This document shows positions 438 to 8,653 of a DNA stretch of 55,768 nucleotides, in pieces. Positions within the stretch are counted from its first letter, which is position 1; every line of letters begins with the position of its first letter. Made by a program: the position numbers and the translations under genes. The DNA comes from Blastococcus saxobsidens (GTDB lineage: Bacteria > Actinomycetota > Actinomycetes > Mycobacteriales > Geodermatophilaceae), in the NCBI RefSeq assembly GCF_002938435.1, contig NZ_POQT01000030.1, forward strand, positions 1-55,768, read 5' to 3'. The notes below the pieces were generated by a model. It worked only from the letters and a program-made list of their open reading frames with translations. It had not been told where the DNA came from and ran no database searches.

Positions 438-1625
438 ATGCGCATCGGCACCGTTCGCCGCGGCCGGGCACAGGATGCGGGGTCCGGTGTCTCGGGCACC
501 GCCCGGCTCGACCGCCGTACCAAGAACCTGACGAAGCGGCTGCGCCCCGGCGACATCGCCGTCATCGACCACGTCGACATCGACCGGGTCAGCGCCGACG
601 CCCTCGTGGGCTGCCGGATCGCCGCGGTCGTCAACGCCGCGCCCAGCATCTCCGGCCGCTATCCCAACCTCGGTCCCGAGATCCTCATCAACGCCGGCAT
701 CCCGCTGCTCGACGACGTGGGCAAGGACGTCTTCGCCAAGCTCAAGGAGGGCGCGCACGTCCGCCTCGACGGCGCCCAGCTGATCACCGAGGACGGCACC
801 GTCGTCGCCGAGGGCACGGTCCACGACGCGGACACGGTCGCCGCGGCCATGACCGAGGCCAAGGCGGGGCTCTCGGTGCAGCTCGAGGCGTTCGCCGCCA
901 ACACCATGGAGTACATGAAGCGGGAGCGCGCGCTCCTGCTCGACGGCGTCGGCGTCCCCGACGTCACGACCTCCATCGAGGGCCGGCATGCGCTCGTCGT
1001 CGTCCGCGGTTACGACTACAAGGAGGACCTGCACGCCCTCCGCCCCTACATCCGCGACTACCGGCCCGTCCTCATCGGGGTCGACGGGGGAGCGGACGCG
1101 CTGATCGAGGCCGGCTACCAGCCGGACATGATCGTCGGCGACATGGACTCCGTCAGCGACGACTCGCTGACCAGCGGCGCCGAGGTCGTCGTGCACGCCT
1201 ACGCCGACGGACGCGCGCCGGGCCTCGCCCGCGTGCAGGACCTCGGCGTGGACGCGATCACCTTCCCCGCCTCGGCGACCAGCGAGGACATCGCGATGCT
1301 GCTGGCCGACGAGAAGGGCGCCAAGCTCATCGTCGCCGTGGGCACCCACGCCACCCTCGTGGAGTTCCTCGACAAGGGCCGGGGCGGCATGGCCTCCACC
1401 TTCCTCACCCGGCTGCGCCTGGGCGGCAAGCTCGTCGACGCCAAGGGCGTCAGCCGGCTGTACCGCAGCCGGATCTCGACCGCAGCCCTCGTGGTCCTCG
1501 TCCTCGCCGCCTTCCTCGCGATCGGATCGGCGCTGGCCGTGTCCGCCGCCGGGCGCGTCTACCTGGACCTGCTGCTCGACCAATGGAACAGCTTCATGTT
1601 CTGGCTGGAGAACCTCCTTTCGTGA
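438..1625 (+). CDS. steA: SteA-like cytokinetic ring / septation protein
   Basis: This 395-residue protein belongs to the actinobacterial family represented by Rv1697 and corynebacterial SteA, which acts with SteB in cell separation at the division site. A conserved entry segment (residues about 35-80, with VVNAAPSISGRYPNLGP) is followed by a thiamine-pyrophosphokinase-like fold with GVDGGAD (214-220) and the DMIVGDMDS stretch (230-238). A single transmembrane helix lies near residues 347-372, leaving a short C-terminal tail. I chose the ATG at 438 because homologues begin about 35 residues before the RPGDIAV motif; the frame is open upstream to ATG 336 but that part does not look like protein. 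No clear ribosome binding site precedes 438, so the start is less sure than the gene. Its stop overlaps the steB start by 4 nt. Confidence 0.9.
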   Translation: MRIGTVRRGRAQDAGSGVSGTARLDRRTKNLTKRLRPGDIAVIDHVDIDRVSADALVGCRIAAVVNAAPSISGRYPNLGPEILINAGIPLLDDVGKDVFAKLKEGAHVRLDGAQLITEDGTVVAEGTVHDADTVAAAMTEAKAGLSVQLEAFAANTMEYMKRERALLLDGVGVPDVTTSIEGRHALVVVRGYDYKEDLHALRPYIRDYRPVLIGVDGGADALIEAGYQPDMIVGDMDSVSDDSLTSGAEVVVHAYADGRAPGLARVQDLGVDAITFPASATSEDIAMLLADEKGAKLIVAVGTHATLVEFLDKGRGGMASTFLTRLRLGGKLVDAKGVSRLYRSRISTAALVVLVLAAFLAIGSALAVSAAGRVYLDLLLDQWNSFMFWLENLLS

Positions 1626-6284: not shown

Positions 6285-8653
6285 GCGCGCCGGGGCCCCG
6301 TGCCGCCGCGCTCCTGCTGCTGGTGCTCGGCCTGCTCCTCGGGGTGGCGGCCCCGGCCGGCGCGGTCGGGGACGGCGGCGTGGACCACGCGGCCGACCGG
6401 GTCGTCGTCGTCGGCATCCCCGGCCTCACCTGGGCCGACGTCGACCAGGGGCGCACACCGCGGCTGTGGGCGATGGCGGGGGAGTCCAGCATCGGCTCGG
6501 TGTCGGTGCGTGCCGCCCGGTCCACCAGCTGCCTGCTCGACGGCTGGGCCACCCTGGGCGCCGGCAACCGGGCGCGGTTCCCCGGCACGGACCAGGGCCT
6601 GCCGCCGGTGCCGGTGCCGACCCCGCCGACGGAGCCGGGGGAGGTCCCACCGGCCGAGCAGCCCGGACCGGACGAACCGGTGCTGGACACCTCGCTGACC
6701 CACTGCGGCCTGCAGGAGCGCGTGGCGGCGGTGGCCCTCGGGGACCCGCGGGCCACCGTCGCCCGCATCGCCGAGGACCCGGGCACGGTCCGGTTCGGGG
6801 CCCAGCCGGGCGCGCTGGGTGCCGAGGTGGGGTGCGCCTCCGTCATCGGGCGCGCCGCCGCGCTGGCGGCGGCGGCCCCCGGTGTCGAGCTCGCCTCGGA
6901 GCGGGTGCTCCCGTCGGACCCGGCGGAGATCGCGGCCGTCCTGAGCGCCTGCCCGCTCTCGCTGGTCTCCCTCGACCAGCTCACCGACGCCGGCCGCCCG
7001 GGAGCCGAGCAGACCGACGACGGCACCGAGCCCCTGCCGCGGGCGACGGCGCTGGGCCGGATCGACGAGGCCGTGGGCCGCCTGCAGGACGCCGTCGACG
7101 CGCTGCCGGGGGAGACGCTCGTGCTGCTCGCCGGCATCTCCGAGGTCAACGACGGTCGTGCGCAGCTGCACGTCGGGATGGCGCAGGGGCCGGGCTTCGG
7201 CACCGGCTGGCTGGTGTCGGCGAGCACGGGCCGGGTGCCGTTCGTGCAGCTGATCGACCTGGCCCCCACCGCGCTGCGGGCGCTCGGCCTCGAGCGGCCG
7301 GCCGCGATGAACGGCCAGCCCCTGCGCGCCACGGGCGAGCGGCCCGACCTCGCGGCGAGCGTGGCCGGGCTGGAGGAGGTGAACACCGCGGCCCTCACCC
7401 ACCACCGCAACACCGGGGGCTTCTTCTGGACGCTCGTCGGCGCCGGCGCCCTCGTCGTCGCCGCGGGGGTGCTGGTCGTGGGCAGGGGCCTGGCGGGGCG
7501 GTACCGGTGGGCACGGCCGGCCCTGCGGCTGGCCTGCCTCGCCGTCGCCGCGCTGCCGGTGGCGACCTACCTCGCCGGGATCTGGCCCTGGGAGCGGACC
7601 GCCGCGCCGCTGCAGGCCCTCGTCGCGGCGGTCGTCGTCGCCGACCTGGCCGTCGTCGCCGTCGCCCTGCTGGGGCCCTGGCGCCGACGGCGCCTCGGAC
7701 CCCCGCTGGCGGTGCTGGCGGTCACGCTCGGGACGCTGGTCGGCGACGTGCTGACCGGCTCCTCCCTGGAGCTCAACGGCCCGCTGGGCTACGACGCGAT
7801 CGTCGCGGGCCGGTTCACCGGCTACGGCAACCTCTCCTTCGGCCTGCTGGCGGTCGCCGCGCTGGCGGTCACCGCCGCCCTGGCCACCGTGCTCGGCCGG
7901 CGCGCGCCCGCCGCGCGACGGCGGCTCGTGACCGGCACGGTGGTCGTCCTCGCCGGCGTGCTGGCCGTGGCGGTCATCGGCACGCCGTCCCTCGGCCGGG
8001 ACTTCGGCGGTGTCCTGGCGGCGCTGCCCGGCTTCCTGCTGCTCGCCATGCTGCTCACCGGGGTCCGGGTGACGGTGCTGCGGCTGGCCGCCACCCTGGG
8101 CGCCGCCGTGGTGGCCGTCGGCGGCGTGGCCGTCCTGGACTGGCTGCGACCACCGGAGGAGCGGACCCACCTGGGCCGCTTCGTCGAGCAGGTGCTCACC
8201 GGTGAGGCGTGGACGGTGATCAGCCGCAAGGCGGAGGCCAACGTCGGCATCCTGCTCAACAGCCCCCTGGCCTTCCTGCTGCCGGTCGCATTGGTGGCCG
8301 CCTTCTGGCTGCTGCGGGCGGGAGGGCGGCTGCGCAGCGCGCCCGCATCCGGCGGGCGGCCGGCCCGGACCCCGGCGGGGCTGCCGGCCGCAGACGCCGC
8401 CGTGCTGCGTGCGACCCTGCTGGCCACGCTGCTCAGCCTGACCATCGGAGCGGCGGTCAACGACTCCGGCGTCGCGCTGCCGGCCACCGCGGCGGCCGTG
8501 CTCGTGCCGCTGCTGGTGTGGCTGGTGGCCGCTCCCGAGGCGGACCCGACCGGTCGGGGGGAGACCCGGGGTGGTGCTGCCCACTCCGGCCTGGCGGACG
8601 CCCCCGGCCGTGTTACGGTCGTCTCCCGTGGGTCGACCGTCTGGAACACGTGA
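6281..8653 (+). CDS. Large membrane protein with exported phosphatase-fold domain and multi-helix C-terminal half
   Basis: The protein has 790 residues and starts at the ATG that overlaps the stop of the glycosyltransferase gene. A signal peptide (1-28, ending AGA) precedes an extracytoplasmic domain to about residue 370. Pieces of that domain resemble the alkaline-phosphatase/phosphodiesterase superfamily: [11 protein letters not shown] at its start, a TPRLWAMA segment, [17 protein letters not shown], and [14 protein letters not shown] near its end. After TGGFFWTL the chain becomes a series of about seven to nine membrane helices. Related proteins occur next to steAB in other actinobacteria, but I know no established function. 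Within this operon it could modify or release a wall glycan. The end overlaps the pyrG start by 26 nt. Confidence 0.72.
8614..8619 (+). promoter_or_regulatory. -10 box of a probable leaderless pyrG promoter
   Basis: TACGGT fits TANNNT and lies 8 nt upstream of GTG 8628 inside the end of the preceding gene. No clear -35 and no ribosome binding site are seen, which suits a leaderless transcript. Confidence 0.42.

Follow-up and report, generated by a model that had tools for sequence, protein, structure and literature searches.

A conserved gene cassette inherited with steAB points to a probable lipid-linked glycan pathway associated with cell separation in actinobacteria

Between the cell-separation genes steA and steB and the CTP synthase gene pyrG, the genome of Blastococcus saxobsidens carries four further genes, here called pgt, murJ2, gt4 and memP, and the question raised by this locus is whether their products belong functionally with SteAB or are mere neighbours of it. 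The locus lies on contig NZ_POQT01000030.1, the 55,768 nucleotides of which are referred to below as the window; the source genome, 4.5 Mb in 86 contigs, was searched as well. According to passages of PMC6705760 and PMC12338722, SteAB takes part in cell separation and acts on peptidoglycan hydrolases, and those passages name no glycan genes in connection with it; the ligand of SteA is an open question in mycobacterial cell-separation work. The reading that we favour, with a probability of about 0.65, is that these genes form an operon for a short pathway that builds a polyprenyl-linked glycan and works together with the cell-separation complex SteAB. What is new here is that residues of SteA track the presence of the glycan cassette, which suggests that cell division is connected with a pathway for a surface sugar that has not been described before.

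The open reading frames steA, steB, pgt, murJ2, gt4 and memP follow one another in this order on the plus strand, with pyrG behind them (Table 1). Their junctions are tight, with overlaps of 4, 4, 8 and 4 nucleotides and a single gap of 97 nucleotides between pgt and murJ2, and no promoter-like or terminator-like site was found in positions 1-9000 by a scan limited to consensus sites. A preliminary description of this DNA had listed six overlapping or nearly overlapping genes; all six frames, their order and their families were recovered, the exceptions being the products of pgt (P0003) and memP, for which the Pfam search returned no match.

Comparison across genomes identifies the four inserted genes as an inherited cassette. 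In a survey of 158 genomes of the class, pgt was detected in 63 (a remnant of about 21 bits in G130 included) and steB in 87. The two occurred together in 56 genomes and were at most 395 bp apart in every one of them (the adjacency in G114 being read from a fragment at a contig end); steB alone was found in 31, pgt alone in seven, all of family f30, and neither in 64. Of these 158 genomes, 157 had a MurJ. Closer to the window, 47 of 60 relatives held a pgt relative, the source genome counted, and all 15 loci with pgt that were read in the order, three from the family of the window and 12 from other families, contained steA, steB, pgt, murJ2 and gt4; memP was seen in 12 of them, three of which have it twice. 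Where pgt is absent, loci of the order read steA-steB-pyrG with none of murJ2, gt4 and memP (10/10); when nine loci of the class are added, 17 of the 19 steAB loci without an intact pgt lacked these three genes and two (L310 and L317) retained gt4. Among named loci, taken as the best 80 of 579 relatives and reduced to 70 evaluable ones by exclusion of ten on short contigs, steA, steB, pgt and murJ2 were present in 70/70, gt4 in 68, memP in 57 and pyrG (with a profile from the window frame) in 66, and the genes found were colinear in all 70. The co-occurrence with steAB, on which the preliminary description had made its proposal depend, therefore holds in the class genomes (pgt beside steB in 56/56) and in the named loci (pgt and murJ2 with steAB in 70/70).

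As judged from aligned sequences, it is SteA, and not SteB or PyrG, that changes with the cassette. Median identity to the window SteA was 68.4% in 74 cassette-bearing loci vs 53.4% in 17 cassette-free ones, mostly outside its own family, whereas the corresponding medians were 33.1% (75 loci) vs 34.6% (17) for SteB and 76.1% (61) vs 77.7% (17) for PyrG. At a matched PyrG identity of 76-80%, SteA had a median of 69.5% in 974 cassette-bearing pairs vs 48.4% in 76 cassette-free pairs, and SteB medians of 33.2% and 32.7%, the pairs not being independent of one another. Nineteen SteA columns were fixed in cassette-bearing sequences and lost in cassette-free ones (104 cassette-bearing, 29 deep-branching and 17 cassette-free sequences), and ten residues were picked as a signature: T28, K29, D235, D237, S238, H253, Y255, S282, K313 and G337. 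On the selection set the signature scored 10 in 104/104 cassette-bearing, 9-10 in 29/29 deep-branching and 0-6 in 17/17 cassette-free sequences. For loci that had played no part in the choice, the score was 10 in all 13 cassette-bearing SteA recovered (from 20 retrieved loci, 19 of which showed pgt) and 1-4 in all 20 cassette-free ones. Three residues, S238 of the GDxDS nucleotide motif, K313 and G337, were present in 146/146 cassette-bearing and 0/37 cassette-free SteA, and cassette and signature agreed in 87/87 rows of a PyrG tree that bore both traits. Individual loci suggest which gene of the cassette SteA follows. Within one genus, L310 has kept gt4 and lost pgt at a signature of 8, and L317 holds a decayed pgt remnant at a signature of 10, as if the change in SteA trailed the loss of pgt. 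In L136 and L147 (Cellulosimicrobium and Isoptericola), gt4 is absent, murJ2 stands directly before pyrG and the signature is full, so that SteA seems to follow pgt and not the glycosyltransferase.

Five of the ten signature residues lie in the part of SteA, residues 174-258, that matches TPPK/MptE, and the Pfam family TPK_catalytic scored over its cut-off in the window SteA and in 5/5 other cassette-bearing SteA proteins vs 0/5 cassette-free ones. The PF04263 match in the window protein covers only positions 9-45 of 113, and its score against the thiamine pyrophosphokinase equivalog TIGR01378 is 40.1 bits, under the cut-off of 76.4. The SteAB pairs of Corynebacterium and Mycobacterium resemble that of the window in that orthologues of SteA and SteB are encoded in one operon (passages of PMC6705760, PMC12977500 and PMC12338722). 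They differ from it in that the SteA chains in the PDB, 9hmy and 9hmz, whose species we deduced from PMC12977500, have GDPDQ and GNPTG where the window SteA has GDMDS, and in that the genomes of family f8, probably the Mycobacteriaceae, are without pgt. SteA of C. glutamicum is stabilised by GDP or UDP, as stated in a passage of PMC12977500, which fits a sugar-nucleotide site; if C. glutamicum is without the cassette, nucleotide binding is not confined to cassette-bearing SteA.

The view that the cassette is special to the lineage of Blastococcus had to be given up, since pgt beside steAB extends to deep-branching families of the phylum. In a survey of 296 genomes of the phylum, 118 gave a pgt match; nine matches were weak (<40 bits), seven of which resemble, by our own reading of span and frame length, ordinary MraY/WecA proteins and two fragments. 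Among 31 deep-branching loci, selected for the presence of pgt, 30 had steA and steB alongside it. Their glycosyltransferases varied: a GT2 gene, found with a profile derived from seven of these loci and identified through PF00535 in 3/3 genes tested, occurred in 17 and gt4 in eight (both in one locus), and none was found in seven; eleven of the loci had a murJ2-like gene and 13 a memP-like one, and gene order and strand varied. Because the deep-branching loci keep these genes, the lasting unit appears to consist of steA, steB and pgt, usually with a glycosyltransferase, and because the linkage reaches so far, the lineages without the cassette may be derived ones, bearing in mind that the deep loci were selected for pgt. 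The module for the lipid-linked glycan and steAB thus seem to have formed a functional unit for a long time. In family f87, two small genomes (L232 and L233) carry GT2 and a MurJ-like gene on the opposite strand within steA-steB...pgt-pyrG, along with a very diverged memP relative, and in L193 (family f24) a large membrane protein frame between murJ2 and gt4 (6969-8714, minus strand) resembles, by eye, a polyprenol-dependent glycosyltransferase of the GT-C type.

Another account would be that the genes are a common type of cluster for an exopolysaccharide or an accessory wall polymer, which neighbours steAB by position only, through co-transcription with pyrG and its neighbours, and that SteA has changed in the same lineages for other reasons. 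The loss or duplication of memP and gt4 in some lineages would agree with this, as would the few independent losses of the cassette, the changes along the whole length of SteA and the persistence of pgt-gt4 without steB in f30; the steAB-pgt linkage, however, spans deep-branching families despite changes of glycosyltransferase and gene order, and SteA tracks the cassette where SteB and PyrG do not, which makes the account unlikely. The seven pgt-bearing genomes of f30 are most likely Streptomyces: the chaplin family PF03777, which we take to be a marker of that genus, gave 6-11 matches in each of them, none in G042 and G050 and two weak ones in G095. They hold pgt-gt4 with no match to steB, and the seven stretches inspected around these genes contain neither steA nor murJ2; six of the stretches have pyrG at least 4.1 kb past gt4, and in the remaining one no pyrG was seen, so that the earlier remark that steB is directly followed by pyrG in Streptomyces is not supported. 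In the two f30 loci inspected by eye, a recN-like frame stands upstream of pgt.

The f30 genomes are also the first of several observations that weigh against a glycan pathway coupled to SteAB, as they imply that the enzymes can persist without SteAB. Two Promicromonosporaceae loci among the 70 named ones are without gt4. The independent losses number only three to eight (a quick PyrG tree gave eight changes of cassette state, three of them forced by well-supported branches), and a sign test over three independent pairs, all three in agreement, gives p 0.25. The difference in SteA is also a broad one: T28, K29, S282, K313 and G337 lie outside the TPPK/MptE-matched stretch, a position of K313 and G337 in the pocket being hypothetical, and 75 columns conserved in cassette-bearing SteA were kept at 99% in held-out cassette-bearing vs 70% in held-out cassette-free sequences. 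Many cassette-free SteA proteins retain D235 (22/37), D237 (24/37) or D216 (20/37). The authors of PMC12977500 call the SteA pocket conserved in a passage of that paper, and the nucleotide stabilisation of the C. glutamicum protein reported there implies that the pocket is not simply dead in that species. Finally, no biochemistry on pgt, murJ2, gt4 or memP was found in the open-licence literature searched.

The assignment of Pgt as a transferase carries much of the proposed chemistry. An hhalign comparison of the pgt family with PF00953 proteins of the phylum gave a probability of 97% (E 1.1e-10, 183 columns), and a profile of ten rows including P0003 (A3) matched three PDB sequences, all of them MraY (E 1.3e-7 to 2.7e-7), pairing GLIDD with GFVDD, NLLNLLD with NAVNLTD and GDaGsN with GDVGS, with the N..N..D and GD.G motifs in register. 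D94, D95 and D222 align with D117, D118 and D265 of MraY, described as its DDD motif in a passage of PMC6606608, so that the catalytic aspartates of the PNPT family (PF00953) are retained. These three residues and D173 are invariant in 18/18 and in 10/10 aligned rows, and in the 18 so is the greater part of the remaining residues in 170-178 and 220-233; the motifs on which the preliminary description had relied, including 94-95, are thus present and largely invariant. The family, mostly of 260-300 residues, also occurs in Bacillota with shared motifs, where five relatives, chosen among rows already bearing PF00953, scored 28.6-45.4 bits (5/5 over the cut-off of 27); five actinobacterial pgt places reached 21.5-25.9 bits, L243 21.3 bits, and L251 had no match.

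Pgt departs from MraY/WecA in several respects, two of which weigh against the favoured reading: P0003 alone has a match in neither PDB nor Pfam, and the protein is without the HHH motif of loop E, to which H324/H325 of MraY belong (passage of PMC4790310), the C-terminal region of P0003 containing no His and the Bacillota rows a single one. The position of HHH is occupied in the Pgt family by S-x-T-x-x-I...LD..GR, which the Bacillota His precedes, and NLLDLRPGRA stands for the two-Asp motif of MraY, the second Asp of DGLDG being Pro. Since DDD is kept, HHH absent and that second Asp replaced, Pgt is most likely a PNPT-type enzyme with another kind of sugar-nucleotide recognition, and we assign it neither to MraY nor to WecA. 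This assignment is sequence-based, a single-sequence AlphaFold model with a pLDDT (predicted local distance difference test) of 38.7 having been set aside. The altered nucleotide contacts, when set against those of MraY in passages of PMC6606608 and PMC4790310, could alternatively mean that Pgt has ceased to be an enzyme and now senses lipid II or polyprenyl phosphate in the membrane, with SteA as the route of its signal. A mere sensor would hardly be expected to keep the aligned DDD residues invariant in all rows, or to be accompanied by a glycosyltransferase gene in 68/70 evaluable named and 24/31 deep loci, and we hold this alternative to be very improbable.

A similar question arises for MurJ2, which resembles the lipid II flippase MurJ in its PF03023 match over the cut-off and in the first-helix arginines R25 and R31, and differs in scoring below the MurJ equivalog cut-off (TIGR01695, 141.4 vs 235.6 bits) and in forming a separate clade: 27 MurJ2 rows, of 78 collected, were divided from 25 other MurJ rows by one branch with 100/100 support. 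The preliminary description had raised the prospect that this was the only MurJ of the genome; another one, at 299 bits, is present elsewhere. R25 and R31 are invariant in 27/27 rows and also stand in those other MurJ rows that extend over the two positions, and E60, invariant in MurJ2, is seemingly present in the genome's other MurJ as well. The idea that MurJ2 is set apart by loss of the MurJ-defining arginines was dropped, the other MurJ of the genome being without two of them too (by eye). Given that Pgt is akin to MraY and MurJ2 to MurJ, and that SteAB acts on peptidoglycan hydrolases (passages of PMC6705760 and PMC12338722), the two could be imagined as a second MraY/MurJ pair, a dedicated lipid II branch for peptidoglycan at the division site. 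Yet, outside this locus, the genome encodes three PF00953 transferases and a further MurJ, Pgt is without the loop-E HHH, and MurJ2 stands in its own clade under the equivalog cut-off. The glycosyltransferase of the cassette is, moreover, GT4 or GT2 by Pfam and not of the MurG type (MurG is a GT28 enzyme); in the window product both GT-B domains are over cut-off (PF13692 and PF13579/PF13439). A septal lipid II branch is for these reasons quite unlikely.

The exported phosphatase-like domain that the preliminary description had seen in MemP does have an alkaline-phosphatase fold in a fold search, which hardly covered the membrane domain, but the releasing activity envisaged for it is doubtful, because the expected metal Asp after strand 1 (residue 47) is Pro or Ala in 34/34 rows. 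The expected DH pair (288-289) reads D/E followed by V/T/S/L/K, with no His. The metal-ligand positions are those that we take alkaline phosphatase to have, and they were located in MemP from its sequence and strand prediction rather than from a superposition. The lack of the metal Asp and the DH His distinguishes MemP from YejM/PbgA, NPP and iPGM of the same superfamily, and its membrane helices are C-terminal to the exported domain, whereas the five-transmembrane (5TM) domain of YejM is presumably N-terminal, ahead of the phosphatase-like domain. The 5TM domain of YejM is described in a passage of PMC7576196. Tandem memP pairs occur in L037, in L038/L111 (one contig) and in L047, each copy being about 35-38% identical to the window MemP.

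From what the computation shows, namely the gene families and their order, their co-inheritance, the aspartates kept in the transferase and the SteA residues that go with the cassette, we infer a chemistry, with its sugars, its cellular place and its direction of coupling, that would run as follows. Pgt would transfer a sugar-1-phosphate from a nucleotide sugar onto polyprenyl phosphate, and a second sugar would be attached by GT4 or, in many of the deep lineages, by GT2. The product would be flipped outward by MurJ2 or, in lineages that have no murJ2, by a different flippase. SteA, at the inner face, would have a nucleotide or a sugar nucleotide as its ligand and would either help to make the lipid-linked sugar or sense it; SteB, outside, would relay the state of SteA to wall hydrolases, and the exported domain of MemP, probably non-catalytic, may bind or pass on the glycan, which would presumably be synthesised at the septum. 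Of the earlier proposal that a glycan is started, extended, flipped and finally modified or released beside steAB, the first three steps are matched by a transferase, a glycosyltransferase and a MurJ-like flippase that travel with steAB, and release by a phosphatase is the doubtful one. As f30 keeps pgt-gt4 without steB and SteA changes where pgt is absent, SteA seems to depend on Pgt and not the reverse; most likely, SteA binds, uses or senses something made by Pgt. More tentatively, SteA may at root be an enzyme in an undescribed pathway for a lipid-linked glycan that is as old as the phylum, with a TPPK/MptE-like domain that catalyses a step on what Pgt produces or on the nucleotide sugar that Pgt uses, and the SteA proteins of mycobacteria and corynebacteria may be reduced, nucleotide-sensing scaffolds for hydrolase control left by an apparently repeated loss of the pathway, a possibility that we rate as less probable than its converse.

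For mycobacterial cell separation, the comparison supplies partner genes of SteA and residues of interest (S238, K313, G337 and the GDMDS motif), and it predicts that a good part of the actinobacteria make a lipid-linked sugar next to their machinery for cell separation. Since Bacillota have Pgt relatives and SteAB is reported to adjoin spo0A in Clostridia (passage of PMC12977500), the pathway may also matter for sporulation. No paper reporting the four genes together with steAB was found among the matches listed in the open-licence literature.

Table 1. Features of the steA-pyrG locus, in positions of the window
Feature	Position	Strand	Basis or remark
steA	438-1625	+	NF040608 534.5 bits (cut-off 150); PF12555; PF04263 35.3 bits (cut-off 30.7)
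steA, TPPK/MptE-matched stretch	~957-1211	+	
steA, GDMDS motif	1137-1151	+	
steA, T28-K29	519-524	+	
steA, C-terminus			SteA-like domain with membrane segment
steB (MctB family)	1622-2566	+	PF11382 301 bits
pgt, putative diverged MraY/WecA-like polyprenyl-phosphate sugar-1-phosphate transferase	2563-3420	+	invariant motifs, profile matches
pgt, D94-D95	2842-2847	+	
pgt, D173	3079-3081	+	
pgt, D222	3226-3228	+	
murJ2, MurJ-like MOP flippase	3518-5146 (alternative GTG start 3479)	+	PF03023 144 bits (cut-off 27.4)
gt4, GT4-type (GT-B) glycosyltransferase	5139-6284	+	PF13692 102 bits, PF13579 80 bits
memP	6281-8653	+	
memP, exported alkaline-phosphatase-fold domain	6389-7339	+	residues 37-353
memP, multi-helix membrane domain	7349-8527	+	residues 357-749; C-terminal to exported domain
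pyrG, CTP synthase	8628-10364 (GTG start)	+	conserved right-hand neighbour; not counted in the pathway

If pyrG starts at 8628, it overlaps memP by 26 nucleotides. In the draft genomes of Candidatus Blastococcus massiliensis (L050/L099) and Allosalinactinospora (L138), the murJ2 match is split into three pieces, and in L138 that of gt4 is split into two, reflecting either sequencing errors or decay. The sole tRNA gene found in the window is tRNA-Pro(ggg), at 33114-33188.

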